A DNA stretch of 32,207 nt, taken from contig CAITYE010000121.1 of the NCBI GenBank assembly GCA_903896535.1, positions 1-32,207 of the forward strand. The letters are read 5' to 3'. A program made the position numbers and the translations under genes. Below are positions 10,970-17,549 of the stretch, in pieces. Source of the DNA: an uncultured Paracraurococcus sp. GTDB taxonomy: Bacteria > Pseudomonadota > Alphaproteobacteria > Acetobacterales > Acetobacteraceae. Under the pieces are notes generated by a model. It ran no database searches and had not been told where the DNA came from. It worked only from the letters and a program-made list of their open reading frames with translations. The stretch's first letter is position 1, and every line of letters starts with the position of its first letter.

Positions 10970-11899
10970 TCAGGCGGGCTCGACGCCCAGCCGCTTGAAG
11001 AGCTGGTAGTGCCGGTCACGCTCCGCCTGCGCGAAGGCCAGCAGCTCCGCCCCTTCCAGGGTGAAGGGCGCGAAGCCCGCGGCGGTCATCTTCTCGGCGA
11101 TCTCCGGACTCGGCCGCACCGCGCGCACCGCGTCGATCCAGCGCTGCTGCGCGGTGGGCGGCACCGCCCGGTGCACCGTGACGGCGAACCAGGCGGCGAT
11201 GAGGACCCCGGGATAGCCAAGCTCGCGGAAGGTCGGCACCTCCGGCAGCAGGGGGGAGCGTTCGGCGGTGGTGCTCGCCAGCGCCAGCAGCCGCCCGGCC
11301 TTCACCTGCGGCACGGCATCGTTGAAGAAGCCGAAGGCGCAGGCGACGGACCCGTTCAGCAGCGCCTCCGTCGTATTGCGGAAGGCGACGCCCTGCGGCG
11401 TGATGCCGGTGGCTTCCGCCAGCAGCGCCATGGCGAGGTTGGGTACGCCCGCATGTCCCGCATGGGCGAAGCTCAGCTTGTCGCCCTCCCGTTTGGCGAG
11501 CGCGAGGAAGCCGGCGAGATCGGTGATGCCGCGCCCGGCCGGCACCAGCAGTACCAGCGGCGCTTGCCCGGTGCCCGCCAGCGGCAGCAGATCGGCGACA
11601 TCGAAGCCGCTGACCTTCTGGACCGCCGGCAGGGCGGGGACGAATTGCGGCATCATCATCGCTGTCGTGCCATCGGGTGGGGCACGCAGCAGGGCTTCGG
11701 TCGCAATGGCGGTATTGGCGCCGGGACGGTTTTCCACCAGCACCGTCGTGCCCAGCCGTTCTGACAGGCCCGGCGCATAAAGCCGGGCGATGAGGTCGGG
11801 CGGGCTGCCCGGCGGGTAGCCGATCAGGATGCGCGTCGGCTGCCCCTGGGCGAGGGCGGCCGTGGCGAGGAGGGAGGCGAGGAGGGTGCGGCGCTGCAT
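10970..11899 (-). CDS. Bug/TctC family tripartite tricarboxylate transporter substrate-binding protein
   Basis: Signal peptide, 'ILIGYPPGSPPDLIARLYAPGLSERLGTTVLVENRPGANTAIA' and 'FRELGYPGVLIAAWFAV' are Bug hallmarks. Confidence 0.9.
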   Translation of the reverse strand: MQRRTLLASLLATAALAQGQPTRILIGYPPGSPPDLIARLYAPGLSERLGTTVLVENRPGANTAIATEALLRAPPDGTTAMMMPQFVPALPAVQKVSGFDVADLLPLAGTGQAPLVLLVPAGRGITDLAGFLALAKREGDKLSFAHAGHAGVPNLAMALLAEATGITPQGVAFRNTTEALLNGSVACAFGFFNDAVPQVKAGRLLALASTTAERSPLLPEVPTFRELGYPGVLIAAWFAVTVHRAVPPTAQQRWIDAVRAVRPSPEIAEKMTAAGFAPFTLEGAELLAFAQAERDRHYQLFKRLGVEPA

Positions 11900-11945: not shown

Positions 11946-12620
11946 TCAGCGCCGGGCCGCGAGCTGCCGATTTTCCAACCGGCTCAGCAGCCGCACCACC
12001 GGCCAGAGCAGGATGAAGTAGATGATAGCCGCGGCCATGATGGGAGAGGCGTTGTAGGTCACGCTTTGCGCCTGCCGCGCCTGAAACAGAAGCTCAGGCA
12101 GCGCGACGACGGAGGCGATGGAGGTGAGCTTCACCACCTCCAGCGTGTTCGAGATGAGGTCCGGCAGCACGTTGCGCACCGCCTGCGGCAGAATCACGTG
12201 CTGCATCGCCTGCCAGCGCGTCAGCCCGGTGGAGCGCGCGGCTTCCAGCTGCCCGCGCGGCACGCTTTCGATGCCCGCGCGCAGGATCTCGCCGTAATAA
12301 GCGCCGGTGTTGAGGAAGAAGCCCAGCGCGACCGCGCCGACGGCCGAGACCTCGAACCCCGCGAAGGGCAGGCCGGCATAGATGAAGACCAGCAGCACGA
12401 GCGGTGGGATGGCGCGGAAGAAATCCACCCAGGCCCAGAGCGGCCAGGCGACCCAGCGGCTGCGCACGGTGGAGAGCAGCGCCAGCACGGTGCCGCTAAT
12501 CAACCCAAGCGGGATGACGAGGGCGGAGAGCCAGAGGGTGACCCAGAACCCCTGCAACAGGATCGGCCAGGCCTGGCTGATGATGTCGAGGGAGAAGAAG
12601 GCGTTCAGGAAGTCCTGCAT
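11946..12620 (-). CDS. amino acid ABC transporter permease (HisM/GlnP type)
   Basis: 'GFWVTLWLSALVIPLGLISGTVLAL', 'YAGLPFAG...GAYYGEILRAGIESVPRGQLEAARSTGLTRWQAMQHVILPQAVRNVLP' EAA-loop signature. Confidence 0.93.
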   Translation of the reverse strand: MQDFLNAFFSLDIISQAWPILLQGFWVTLWLSALVIPLGLISGTVLALLSTVRSRWVAWPLWAWVDFFRAIPPLVLLVFIYAGLPFAGFEVSAVGAVALGFFLNTGAYYGEILRAGIESVPRGQLEAARSTGLTRWQAMQHVILPQAVRNVLPDLISNTLEVVKLTSIASVVALPELLFQARQAQSVTYNASPIMAAAIIYFILLWPVVRLLSRLENRQLAARR

Positions 12621-12635
12621 GGCTAACGATCTCCG

Positions 12636-12696
12636 GCCATGCGATCGACGCGCCGCGCCTCGGCCTTGCGGCCTGCGGTGCTCTGCGATCGCATGG
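12636..12696. repeat. 61-bp palindrome-bounded repeat, copy 1
   Basis: gccatgcgatcgacgcgccgcgcctcggccttgcggcctgcggtgctctgcgatcgcatgg. Ends pair perfectly (CCATGCGATCG / CGATCGCATGG). 58/61 identical to copy 2. Confidence 0.9.
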
Positions 12697-12710
12697 TGCG
12701 GATGCGGCGC

Positions 12711-12771
12711 GCCATGCGATTCACGCGCCGCGCCTCGGCCTTGCGGCCTGCTGTGCTCTGCGATCGCATGG
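12711..12771. repeat. 61-bp palindrome-bounded repeat, copy 2
   Basis: gccatgcgattcacgcgccgcgcctcggccttgcggcctgctgtgctctgcgatcgcatgg. Abuts the stop codon of the upstream permease (12772). Separated from copy 1 by 14 bp. Confidence 0.9.
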
Positions 12772-13452
12772 CTAGCGCTTCCATGCGAAGCGCGTCTCGA
12801 TCCAGCGGCCGAAGATCACGACGGGGACGAAGAGGACGACATAGGCGAGCGCGCCGAGGGTCAACGGCGTCGGGTTGAAGCTGAAGGAGACGCCGGCCTG
12901 CGCCGCACCCAGAATCTCTGAGACCGCGACGACGGAGCCGAGCGCGGTACCCTTGGTGATCGCAATGGTCCGGTTGGTCAGTGGCGGGATGGTCATGCGG
13001 ATCGCTTGCGGCAGCACCACATGGCCGAGCGTCGGCAGGAAGCCGAGCCCAGTCGAGCGCGCCGCCTCCCATTGGCCACGCGGGACGGCGGTGATGCCGG
13101 CCCAGAAGATTTCCTCGGTGAAGGCCATCAGCACGAAGGAGAGCGAGAGCCAGGTGGCGGTGAAGCCATCCATCGTCAGCCCCGCGGAGGGCAGGCCGAA
13201 ATAGAGCAGCGCGATAATGACCAGCGGGGGGAGAGCGCGGAACAGATCGACGACGAAGATGATCAGCCAGTTCAGCGGCCGGATGCTGAAGCTGCGGATC
13301 ACCGCCAGCGCCAGCCCGGCGGTCAGCCCGGTCGCGATGATGCAAAGCGCAAGCGCAATGGTCAGCCAGAAGCCGTCGATGATCTTCGGCAGGTATTCGG
13401 CGGCGACGCGGGCATTGAAGAAACTATCGGTAAACCGATCCCAGGAGGTCAT
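12772..13452 (-). CDS. amino acid ABC transporter permease
   Basis: 'DGFWLTIALALCIIATGLTAGLALAVIR', 'FTEEIFWAGITAVPRGQWEAARSTGLGFLPTLGHVVLPQAIRMTIPPLTN' EAA-loop signature. Confidence 0.93.
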   Translation of the reverse strand: MTSWDRFTDSFFNARVAAEYLPKIIDGFWLTIALALCIIATGLTAGLALAVIRSFSIRPLNWLIIFVVDLFRALPPLVIIALLYFGLPSAGLTMDGFTATWLSLSFVLMAFTEEIFWAGITAVPRGQWEAARSTGLGFLPTLGHVVLPQAIRMTIPPLTNRTIAITKGTALGSVVAVSEILGAAQAGVSFSFNPTPLTLGALAYVVLFVPVVIFGRWIETRFAWKR

Positions 13453-13460
13453 GGCCGCGG

Positions 13461-14204
13461 TCAGTGCCGCTCGATCTGGCCGATGAAGGCGCGGGTGCGT
13501 TCGTGCTGCGGATTGCCGAAGACCGAGGCCGGCGGGCCCTGTTCCACCACCTGCCCATCAGCCATGAAAACCACCCGGTCGGCGGCCGCCCGGGCGAAGG
13601 CCATCTCATGGCTGACCACCACCATGGTCATGCCGCTCTCACGCAGTTCGCGCATGGCCTGCAGGACGCCGCCCACCAATTCGGGGTCGAGTGCCGAAGT
13701 CGGCTCATCGAACAGCATCACCCGCGGCTCCAGCGCGATGGCGCGGGCGATCGCCACGCGCTGCTGCTGGCCGCCAGAGAGCTGGCCAGGAAAATGCTCG
13801 GCGCGATCGGCCAAATCGACCCGGGCGAGGGCAGCGCGGGCCCGCGCCTCCGCCTCTGTCTTGTCCTTCCCCTGCACCTTGCGTAGCGCCAGCATCACGT
13901 TCCCCAGCGCGGTCATATGGGGATAGAGATTGAACTGCTGGAACACCATGCCGATACGCTGACGAGCTTTGTTGATGTCGGTACTGCGCGCCAGCATATC
14001 GATGCCATCGACGATGATCGACCCGCCGCTCGGCTCCTCCAGGCGGTTCAGGCAGCGCAGCAGCGTCGACTTGCCGGAGCCGGACGGGCCGATCACAAAG
14101 ACCAGCTCCCGTTCGGCGACCAGCAGATCGACGTTCTTCAGGACATGCAGCGCGCCGAAATGCTTGTGGATGCCCGTGGCGGCGACGATCGGCGCTGCCA
14201 TCAC
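13461..14204 (-). CDS. amino acid ABC transporter ATP-binding protein (GlnQ-like)
   Basis: Walker A 'GPSGSGKSTLLRCLNRLEEPSGG', signature 'LSGGQQQRVAIARAIALEPRVMLFDEPTSALDPE'. Confidence 0.95.
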   Translation of the reverse strand: MMAAPIVAATGIHKHFGALHVLKNVDLLVAERELVFVIGPSGSGKSTLLRCLNRLEEPSGGSIIVDGIDMLARSTDINKARQRIGMVFQQFNLYPHMTALGNVMLALRKVQGKDKTEAEARARAALARVDLADRAEHFPGQLSGGQQQRVAIARAIALEPRVMLFDEPTSALDPELVGGVLQAMRELRESGMTMVVVSHEMAFARAAADRVVFMADGQVVEQGPPASVFGNPQHERTRAFIGQIERH

Positions 14205-15070
14205 GAACAGGCGGCGGTGTTCGGCGTCGCGTCGTAGCCAGGCATCTCAGGCGGGCCGAAGCCCGGGAAGACAACCCGTTCGGCGTCGTCGGCCTTGGGT
14301 GGCGCGCCGAACCACTTCTCGGACAGCTTGGCGACCGTGCCGTCCTTCTTCAGGCACTCGATGATCTGCTCCATCTTCGTCCGGCCCGCGACATCATCCT
14401 TGCGGAAGGGGGTCGCCCAGTGGAAGCGGGTGCCGGGCAGGACATAATCGGCGACATAAACTGCCGGGTTGCGCGTCGCGCTGTACTTGATGACGGTGTT
14501 GCCCGACAGGTTCGCATAGGCCCGGCCCTGGATCACCGCCTGCGCCGCATCGGCCTGGCTGTCGAAGGCAAGCAGCGTCAGGTTCAGCCGTTCCTGGTTG
14601 GCGCGCACCCAGCTTTCATAGGGCGTGCCCTTGTTCACGCTGATCGGCTTGCCCCGCAGGTCCTCATCGGACTTGATCGGCGGCGTGCCTTTCTTGATGC
14701 CGAACTGCAACTCGGTCCACAGATAGCCCTCGCTGAAGAGCAGGTTTTCCGCCCGCTCCTTCGTCACCGTGGTTGGCGCGCAGAGGAAATCGTAGCGCCC
14801 GGCATTCAGCGCCGGGATCAGGCCGGAAAAGCTCGCCGAGGTGATTTCCACTGGGCGGTTCAGCTTCTTACCAATCGCATCGAAGAGGTCGATCTGGAAG
14901 CCCTGCACACCGCCGGAGAGGGAGGGGAAGGCGTGCGGCGCGAAGGTGCCGTCCACGCCGCATTTCAGCGGCGGCTGGCCGGATCCGGTGGCGCCGACCG
15001 TCACGGTCTGGGCAAGGGCAGGCCCGGTAAGGGCGATGCCAAGGGCGAAGGCGGCGAACCAGCTGCGCAT
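14201..15070 (-). CDS. amino acid ABC transporter substrate-binding protein (SBP family 3)
   Basis: Signal peptide 'MRSWFAAFALGIALTGPALAQ'. 'GFQIDLFDAIGKKLNRPVEITSASFSGLIPALNAGRYDFL' is the SBP_bac_3 pattern. Start placed at 15070 rather than 15241. Confidence 0.9.
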   Translation of the reverse strand: MRSWFAAFALGIALTGPALAQTVTVGATGSGQPPLKCGVDGTFAPHAFPSLSGGVQGFQIDLFDAIGKKLNRPVEITSASFSGLIPALNAGRYDFLCAPTTVTKERAENLLFSEGYLWTELQFGIKKGTPPIKSDEDLRGKPISVNKGTPYESWVRANQERLNLTLLAFDSQADAAQAVIQGRAYANLSGNTVIKYSATRNPAVYVADYVLPGTRFHWATPFRKDDVAGRTKMEQIIECLKKDGTVAKLSEKWFGAPPKADDAERVVFPGFGPPEMPGYDATPNTAACS

Positions 15071-15320
15071 TGTTATTCGCTTTCCGTCTAACTGCGTGGG
15101 GCAGGGTGGTGCCGCATCCACGCGGCGGGCGCAATCGGCCGGATAGCGGGGGAGCGCGCGGTAAAACGTGACCTGCCGATCCTGCAGGCGGTGTGCGAGG
15201 GAACTGCCCAGTGGTCGGGCAGGGTCGTGTGCCTTTGCCATGAAATCGCCGCAGCAGCGCCCAAGCCATGCCGCCGCGCGGCGGCATTCCGTTTAGATGG
15301 CGGAGAAGGAGCCGCCCCGC

Positions 15321-15512
15321 ATGCACCGCTTTGCCTATGGCCTGATCGCCGCGGCTTCCCTGACGCTGCTTGGCTTGATCACTCTCCTTCTCAGCGATGC
15401 CCTCGCCCCGGGGCGGCTGCCGCCGATGCTTGGCTTTTGGGCGGCCACAATGGCCGGCTTCAGCCTTGTCATCGGCCTCGCTCTGCTGGAGCCGCAGGAC
15501 GCTACCAGTTGA
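15321..15512 (+). CDS. small predicted two-transmembrane protein
   Basis: 63-aa ORF 'MHRFAYGLIAAASLTLLGLITLLLSDALAPGRLPPMLGFWAATMAGFSLVIGLALLEPQDATS' with AAGGAG upstream at good spacing. Convergent with the porin gene, stops overlapping by 11 bp. Confidence 0.5.
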   Translation: MHRFAYGLIAAASLTLLGLITLLLSDALAPGRLPPMLGFWAATMAGFSLVIGLALLEPQDATS

Positions 15513-16899
15513 AGGAAATACGCCCGGCCATCGCCTGGAAGGCGCGGTCCGGCCCGGGGATACGGATGTTCCCATTGGCGTATTCGAAGGAAAACCGCAC
15601 GCGCTGCAGTGGGTAGTAGTTCAGCGCTAGGCTCGTCACCGCCTGGCTGTTGCCGGAAATCGGCGTGTCATACAGGTTCACATAGCTGTAGCGCGCGACG
15701 AATTCGGCATAGCCGCGTGCGCCGGGTTCGGCGGTGTTCAGGTCTTGGAAGCGCGGGCGCGTCCAGACCGCCCGCGCCGCGTCCCAGCGCCTGGGTCCGC
15801 CGATAAGTGGCACCGAGATATTGGCGTACCAGCCGCGGAAATTGGGACTGCTCTGCCCGTTGATTCCCTGTGTCGTGATCTGGTGGTATTCTGCGGCGAA
15901 CATCACTGGGCCGAGCAGGCCCGAGACCTCACCCCCGAGGTCATAGGCGCCGCCAATGTTGCGCATCGAACCGGTATCCAGCAGCCGGGTCGGCTCCAGC
16001 CTAAATTCGGGATAATCCCGCAGACGAAGATTTTCGCCCGGGCTTGTGCCGGGATGGAACTGCGCGGACATATCGAGGCCGAGGGCGAGCTTGAAGCCGT
16101 CGGTGTTGACCGGCAGCGCCACCGCGCGGCCGACCAGGCCGCGATTACCGCTATCGTTCAGCACGGACGCGACACCCTGGCTGAAATAGCCGGCGGCGAA
16201 CCAGCGCGCGCCGCGCGCCTCAATCCCCTGGGCGATGCGGGTGTCGCCGGCGGCGAAGCTATTGGCGATGTTGATGATGGCCGGGCGCTCCATCATCAGG
16301 GTTTCGAAGGAGCTGGTGGCGAATTCCAACGTGTAGTTCAGGGTGAAGGCACCGGCTCGCAGCGTCGCCCAACTCAGGCCGGTATAGGCGGTTTGCAACT
16401 CGAACAGGCGGCTGTTTATCTGCGGCTCGAACTGCTTGCCGGGCCCGGGGGCAAACTCCCAGGTGAAGTTGTAGGTGAAATCCTTGAGATAGGTCCCCTG
16501 CACGCCAAGCCGGGCGCGGCGCACGTTGAACAGCGGGTCCGGCACCCCCGGCCGCTCTCCGTCGCCGAGCAGCGGCGGCCGGCCGCCGGGATAGTTGGGC
16601 TGGCTCCAGAACCTGCCGGCATCGCCATCCAGACGAAGCACCGGGGCTATGGTCAGATTGCCATTGCCGAGGGTGATCAACGGTCGGCCATTCGGTAGCG
16701 AAAAAATTGGCTGACCGGGCGAGAGCTGCTGCGGCGTGGTGATGAGCGGCGCCGCGGGCGGCTCGGTGATGGCTTCGCCGGCATCGAGCCGGCGCGCCGC
16801 CTCGGCGTCGCGGCTGGCGTCTCCGGCACTTGTTGCCGTCTGCGCGACCGCCGAAGCGCTGCAAGCACAGAATAGGAGGGTCTGGATAAGCTGACGCAT
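15502..16899 (-). CDS. outer-membrane porin (OprO/OprP, phosphate-selective porin type)
   Basis: Signal peptide 'MRQLIQTLLFCACSASAVAQ'. 'VRRARLGVQGTYLKDFTYNFTWEFAP' and terminal 'FQAMAGRISFNW' beta-strand with C-terminal aromatic. ORF track start at 17547 is too far upstream. Confidence 0.87.
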   Translation of the reverse strand: MRQLIQTLLFCACSASAVAQTATSAGDASRDAEAARRLDAGEAITEPPAAPLITTPQQLSPGQPIFSLPNGRPLITLGNGNLTIAPVLRLDGDAGRFWSQPNYPGGRPPLLGDGERPGVPDPLFNVRRARLGVQGTYLKDFTYNFTWEFAPGPGKQFEPQINSRLFELQTAYTGLSWATLRAGAFTLNYTLEFATSSFETLMMERPAIINIANSFAAGDTRIAQGIEARGARWFAAGYFSQGVASVLNDSGNRGLVGRAVALPVNTDGFKLALGLDMSAQFHPGTSPGENLRLRDYPEFRLEPTRLLDTGSMRNIGGAYDLGGEVSGLLGPVMFAAEYHQITTQGINGQSSPNFRGWYANISVPLIGGPRRWDAARAVWTRPRFQDLNTAEPGARGYAEFVARYSYVNLYDTPISGNSQAVTSLALNYYPLQRVRFSFEYANGNIRIPGPDRAFQAMAGRISFNW

Positions 16900-17094
16900 G
16901 GGCAACCTTATTCCCGCAACCGGCGCTCCATTACCGCAAGATAGTTTTACGGATAACGCGCTGCCCGTTACGCTTCGAAGAAAAGCCTCACCCCGGAGCA
17001 GTCGGCAATACGGGCTCGCTGCGCCGCAGCCCGGCCCGATTGCAGCGAACGAGGCTGCGCGCCATGCTCCGGTCCGCTGACACAGGAGACGAAC

Positions 17095-17511
17095 ATGACC
17101 GGCGTTCCCGATATCAGCCCGAGCGAGACCTGGAAGGCGCTGCTCGCCGACCCGGATGCGGCGCTGATCGATGTGCGGACGGATGCGGAATGGACCTTCG
17201 TGGGCGTGCCCGACCTCGCATCCGTTGGTAAGCAGGCGGTGCTGATCCCCTGGCAGGTCTACCCCTCGATGCAGGTGAACGGACATTTCCTCGATCATCT
17301 GCATCGCGCCGGGCTGACCGCTACCAACCGGCTGTTCTTTATCTGTCGCTCCGGCGCCCGCAGCCTCGCTGCCGGGCAGGCCGCCCAGTCCGGGGGCTAT
17401 CCGCAGGCCTTCAACGTCGCCGATGGCTTCGAAGGGCCGGTCGATGCCGAAGGCCATCGCGGCCATGTCGCCGGCTGGAAGGCCGATGGCTTGCCTTGGC
17501 GGCAGCGTTAA
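17095..17511 (+). CDS. rhodanese-like domain protein
   Basis: 'ALIDVRTDAEWTFVGVPDL' and active-site loop 'FFICRSGARS'. Confidence 0.9.
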   Translation: MTGVPDISPSETWKALLADPDAALIDVRTDAEWTFVGVPDLASVGKQAVLIPWQVYPSMQVNGHFLDHLHRAGLTATNRLFFICRSGARSLAAGQAAQSGGYPQAFNVADGFEGPVDAEGHRGHVAGWKADGLPWRQR

Positions 17512-17549
17512 TCGGCGCATCGCGCCACACCACAGGGAGGGATCCATAA

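Follow-up and report, generated by a model that had tools for sequence, protein, structure and literature searches.

A dispersed hairpin repeat family behind stop codons of Acetobacteraceae operons, with candidate signals for translation initiation

Two genes for permease components of an ABC transporter (P1 and P2) are held apart by 151 bp of tandem palindromic repeats in a 32,207-nucleotide stretch of DNA from an uncultured Paracraurococcus sp. (contig CAITYE010000121.1; the whole stretch is termed the window). What are these repeats, and do they bear on the expression of the genes which they separate?

The permease junction in the window

The operon genes are all encoded on the minus strand, in the order SBP, ATPase, P1, the 151-bp gap, and P2; a Porin_O_P protein gene (15502–17547, minus strand) is located upstream of the operon, and a gene for a TctC-type solute receptor (10970–11899, same strand) downstream. 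The sequence bears out the geometry described in an earlier note on this DNA: two 61-bp copies, identical at 58 of 61 positions and repeated with a period of 75 bp, occupy the gap, the other junctions of the operon are as tight as stated there (Table 1), and the copy at 12711–12771 abuts the TAG of P1, that at 12636–12696 ending 15 bp before the ATG of P2. The outermost arm G of the mRNA-first copy is the final base of the P1 TAG.

Table 1. Features of the ABC transporter operon and its permease junction (positions in the window)
Feature	Position	Strand	Remarks
SBP	14201–15241	-	Overlaps ATPase by 4 bp
ATPase	13461–14204	-	8-bp gap separates it from P1
P1, ABC permease (BPD_transp_1)	12772–13452	-	Pfam PF00528
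TAGCCATG, upstream member of 8-bp direct repeat	12767–12774	-	Sequence
P1 TAG	12772–12774	-	At foot of mRNA-first hairpin; sequence
48-codon open frame	12623–12769	-	Spans both hairpin copies
Hairpin copy, mRNA-first	12711–12772	-	Outer arms GCCATG/CATGGC; 61-bp repeat unit 12711–12771
GTGA, conserved, mRNA-first copy	12721–12724	-	Potential GTG start overlapping TGA; sequence and family profile
GAATC, GANTC-type site	12718–12722	-	mRNA-first copy only; sequence and family profile
Hairpin copy, mRNA-second	12636–12696	-	Model match 12637–12696 (R1, R2)
GGAG, Shine-Dalgarno-like sequence of P2	12631–12634	-	10 nt before P2 ATG
TAGCCATG, downstream member	12618–12625	-	Includes P2 start codon
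P2, second ABC permease	11946–12620	-	Pfam PF00528

Folding gave a hairpin of −33 to −42 kcal/mol for each window copy. No T run, as in an intrinsic terminator, follows the window hairpins or the other listed copies, and a search of Rfam returned no family at the window elements. Small open reading frames across the repeat had also been proposed; the one quoted lies antisense on the plus strand; on the mRNA strand, a 48-codon frame is present. Its ATG is located 2 nt past the TAG of P1 and its TAG 2 nt ahead of the ATG of P2, and because the frame starts and stops 2 nt from the stop and start of the flanking genes, the same 8 bp, TAGCCATG, recur at both ends of the gap.

The mRNA-first copy has kept its GTG, with the Shine-Dalgarno sequence weakened to GAGG; in the mRNA-second copy, the GTG is changed to GTC (12647–12649) and the GANTC site is lost. 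Since the second GTG and the Shine-Dalgarno sequence have decayed, P2 probably uses its own Shine-Dalgarno-like sequence for initiation, and it is possibly coupled to P1 through the 48-codon frame. A role of the repeats in expression is likely; in the window, the pair may influence P2 only slightly.

As to further copies in the genome, which the earlier note had proposed to count, blastn of the repeat pair against its own genome and plasmids retrieved only the pair itself and GC-rich chance matches; full-length copies elsewhere were thus not found by this method, whereas a covariance model located three further diverged relatives in the 4.5-Mb genome (E values of 3e-9, 4e-5, and 1e-3), which holds only about five hairpin sites in all. 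The window pair is best read as an old, partly decayed member or insertion of the family described below.

A hairpin family of the Acetobacteraceae

Covariance models built from 10 elements (R1) and from 150 elements (R2) match the mRNA-first copy at 12712–12771 with E values of 4e-14 and 2.5e-10, respectively. R1 matched 53 of 200 Acetobacteraceae genomes, distributed over 34 of 102 genera. When R2 was run at E ≤ 1e-4 against 289 genomes of the class, a sample which contains few members of the window's own family, its only hits were the window genome and two genomes, both from one other family. In five chosen genomes, with 150 candidates scored per genome, this short, dispersed palindromic repeat reached at least 135, at least 129, at least 107, at least 85, and at least 41 copies, respectively. 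Copies often occur in tandem, head-to-tail, and relatives bear the same structure at unrelated loci; carriers of the long-form motif include, by name, Siccirubricoccus, Plastoroseomonas, Paracraurococcus, and Roseococcus. Judged by its model scores, the repeat pair of the window is one occurrence of an Acetobacteraceae-wide hairpin family (Roseomonas-like genera) of roughly 46–65 bp. The earlier suspicion of a dispersed palindromic family is supported, the models matching unrelated loci in many Acetobacteraceae genomes. A merely local duplication is contradicted by the further copies, and restriction to this operon by copies elsewhere, though at least 10 genomes carry an element at the P1–P2 junction. 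The family is apparently undescribed in the literature; a limited literature search found no published description, which is not proof of novelty.

Within the core, N6-CGATCGC...GCGTGAATCG-N6', the order in mRNA sense is N6-CGATCGC, a 3 × 3 internal loop, a GCGC stem with a variable loop, and GCG-TGA-ATCG-N6'. The outer arms differ by locus and are complementary for 6 bp at unrelated loci, pairing further out being at chance level; a T·C mismatch at arm position 2 is frequent. Covariation was 0.39 as compared to 0.10 after shuffling, and double changes numbered 291 as compared to 76, counts that are inflated by the fitting of the alignment to the structure; the flank pairing test reaches past the modelled positions. 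In the long forms, GAGGAG is often followed by six bases and then GTG, a feature mostly missing from the short forms (46–49 bp). Element length equals 1 modulo 3 in 35 of 47 clusters and the periods of sense tandems are multiples of 3 in 16 of 21, patterns which may be owed in part to a few master copies.

Two genomes, G112 and G087, contain many identical or near-identical copies at unrelated places, the outcome of recent amplification. The recent copies of G112 lie mostly about 2 nt past a stop codon; most of the G087 burst is not so placed. More than 50 copies in G087 share an identical model score, and at 20 loci of this genome (L310–L329) the hairpin is found inside a composite repeat, CT-AGAGCAGATCGC...GAATCTGCTCT-ACAATCCATAAGCTAGAGCGGTTTCGCGCTG..., mostly away from the stop codons of called genes. 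We regard this composite repeat as a recently amplified mosaic.

The empty sites for which the orthologous operon was to be compared do exist. About 46 orthologous P1–P2 junctions were readable, 10 of which are filled (window genome, G024, G135, G112, G195, G129, G060, G184, G198, and G016), all with a CCATG arm right behind the stop codon, and this common arm favours their common descent; the empty ones mostly range from a 13-nt overlap to a 19-nt gap. At the atpG–atpD junction, the element is present in G024/G135 and absent from G189, present in G185 and absent from G016/G130, present in G125/G182 and absent from G003, and present in G127 and absent from G183; it is also present in G083. Empty atpG–atpD sites in near relatives typically measure 12–19 nt. 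At two orthologous junctions, one and the same genus can thus have filled as well as empty sites, so that whole units come and go; the patchy presence within genera implies recurrent insertion at one point, or else recurrent loss. In G199 (L295), an unrelated GC-rich hairpin, CCTCGCTCGGCGAGG, occupies the atpG–atpD gap in three tandem copies; this junction is open to other hairpin arrays as well.

Target duplication was rejected as a general source of the complementary arms, because most arm pairs are inverted rather than direct repeats; direct repeats are weakly enriched at the elements, paired arms are present, and a related transposase was not found. The arms at atpG–atpD follow the last codon of the host gene, which had suggested templating by the host, a source that is unsupported where recent near-identical copies have common arms. 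The linked REP-associated tyrosine transposase (RAYT) envisaged by the earlier note failed to appear: a search for Y1_Tnp in 23 Acetobacteraceae genomes was negative in 22, and the sole Y1 transposase, encoded in the window's own genome (L239; G000, contig 311), has no family hairpin nearby. Mobilisation by RAYT was rejected, since no Y1 transposase accompanies the hairpins.

Placement behind stop codons and translation signals

The position of 117 arrays, which represent 86 distinct junction clusters, was recorded relative to genes predicted with a home-made codon-score caller, so that single gene starts may be wrong. Between codirectional genes, 69 arrays are in sense and 12 in antisense orientation (45 vs 12 if distinct junctions are counted); 12 arrays lie in convergent and 3 in divergent gaps, 15 fall within sense genes and 4 within antisense genes, the remaining 2 being at the edge of a contig. 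For several of those scored inside genes, the upstream gene terminates at the element's own TGA. Outside genes, and where the upstream gene is in sense, 66 of 81 arrays start −3 to +5 nt from the upstream stop codon, and this distance is near-fixed even in convergent gaps. The occupied junctions include hisG–hisD, trpB–trpA, gcvH–gcvP, yebC–ruvC, and prfA–prmC; elements are also located at the 3' end of a gene for riboflavin synthase and where a urease beta gene begins. At L036 and L148, the reading frame continues through the hairpin, which constitutes the C terminus of riboflavin synthase.

The conserved GTGA offers a potential stop-start overlap, and the geometry of a translational coupler, i.e., a stop/start overlap or close restart together with a Shine-Dalgarno sequence, is present in the family. 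The start of the next gene was called at the in-element GTG in 14 sense arrays; the genes concerned include ruvC, trpA, gcvP, and prmC, the latter in three genomes. The next in-frame start is located 12–84 codons further on in 13 of these 14 arrays, and for trpA, ruvC, and gcvP within or past the conserved N terminus. By these gene models, the element is shown to hold the sole plausible start codon of several genes. Of 84 sense arrays, 30 have an element-borne Shine-Dalgarno sequence, as against none of 33 others (p = 1e-5; by cluster, 18 of 56 vs 0 of 32, p = 2e-4), element and host Shine-Dalgarno sequences tend to be mutually exclusive (p = 0.002), and starts out of frame with the GTG favour the phase of an ATGA/TGATG minicistron (18 vs 4, p = 0.004); all p values are nominal, uncorrected for how many features were compared, and the tests were devised while viewing the data. 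Many short copies are devoid of a Shine-Dalgarno sequence, and with folding as a simple proxy, a ribosome at the stop codon was not seen to free the Shine-Dalgarno sequence or the GTG.

Relation to known repeats and possible functions

Like REP and BIME elements, the hairpins are short imperfect palindromes, present in many copies between genes, frequently close to stop codons, and mostly confined to one lineage per family. REP/BIME elements, however, are tagged by GTAG and associated with RAYT; in the hairpin family no GTAG tag was seen, the family profile showing no conserved tetranucleotide (GTAG/GGAG) outside the variable arms, and 22 of 23 genomes lack a Y1/RAYT gene. Head-to-tail tandems, a strong sense bias, a built-in GTG, and sometimes a Shine-Dalgarno sequence further distinguish the family. 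Lichenicola cladoniae is a member of the Acetobacteraceae. For this species one survey counted 1,369 REPs, whose sequences are not given in the passage concerned.

The CGTC REPs are likewise alpha-proteobacterial and without a known dedicated transposase, and the commonest arm of our family is CCGTC; they are reported absent from Acetobacteraceae and consist of an 8–9-bp stem starting with AT, a loop of 4–5, an unpaired CGTC tag, and a CCA tail (PMC3733652), whereas the present hairpin is larger, contains an internal loop and a bulge, and has many other arm sequences, CGTC being part of the paired stem in the common arm class and replaced at many loci. Br-REP1 and Br-REP2 of Bradyrhizobium resemble it as alpha-proteobacterial palindromes near gene 3' ends with GAATC/GATTC in the stem, but their sequences and lineage are different, and the sections available of that report (PMC5082802) describe no start-codon/Shine-Dalgarno module.

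The GTGA, the Shine-Dalgarno sequences, the start codons, the modulo-3 spacing, and the sense bias point to translation initiation or coupling, and we lean towards a REP-like repeat family which acts, or has been recruited, as an intercistronic module for these processes. The upstream ribosome would terminate at the hairpin foot. Initiation of the next gene would then use the Shine-Dalgarno sequence and GTG of the element, a short minicistron whose end overlaps the next start as ATGA/TGATG, or a host Shine-Dalgarno sequence retained just past the hairpin; copies without these signals may be neutral, or serve as 3' hairpins only. Termination-reinitiation coupling by ATGA/TGATG (PMC6728339) has the geometry of the element's GTGA and of the minicistrons, but is a property of single gene pairs, whereas here it would ride on a dispersed repeat. 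Against coupling, 33 of the 117 arrays are antisense between codirectional genes, or lie in convergent or divergent gaps, within antisense genes, or at the edge of a contig. In a more specific form, put forward tentatively and as falling short of probable, the element would be a mobile translational coupler, inserting behind stop codons, or being kept there, at a near-fixed distance and bringing along a stop-start overlap, a Shine-Dalgarno sequence, and a start codon, which would reset the initiation of essential operon genes, its arms being locus-variable yet complementary.

A selfish or neutral REP-like repeat, accumulating behind stop codons because insertion is least harmful there, with Shine-Dalgarno sequences and start codons as later host repairs, would fit the recent near-identical copies of G112 and G087 (those of G087 mostly not behind stops), the patchy gain and loss, and the few, decayed copies of the window genome. 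We nevertheless consider it rather unlikely in view of the strong sense bias, the near-fixed stop distance even in convergent gaps, the restriction of Shine-Dalgarno sequences to sense copies, and the maintained complementarity of the arms. Still less probable is a 3' mRNA hairpin which sets the product ratio by protecting from exonucleases or by slowing ribosomes at the stop codon, a role close to the stabiliser or attenuator of the earlier note: stable hairpins are indeed located at the stop codon, and REPs of E. coli located no more than 15 nt from a stop are reported (PMC12306157, PMC5082802) to stall ribosomes, but the built-in Shine-Dalgarno sequence and GTG, their limitation to sense copies, the start-phase preference, and the modulo-3 periods would be left unexplained. 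A DNA-level element marked by CcrM methylation is highly improbable: GAATC is among the best-conserved letters of the whole family and kept in most copies, and the CIR repeats of Caulobacter, too, are inverted repeats between genes in which a GANTC is conserved, but the transcription-sense bias, the translation signals, and the loss of GANTC from one window copy speak against it, and CIRs are, according to a secondary source (PMC2229807), about 110 bp long, composed of two arms and a linker, and absent from genes, as opposed to a single hairpin of roughly 46–65 bp, some copies of which are read through in genes.

Palindromic repeats of bacteria are usually taken for 3'-end hairpins or for passengers; in the present case, core genes such as ruvC, trpA, gcvP, and prmC appear to receive initiation signals from a repeat family. 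Its presence or absence at one operon junction across the species of a genus makes the presumed translational effect directly testable, and the family bears on the annotation of start codons in many Acetobacteraceae genomes.
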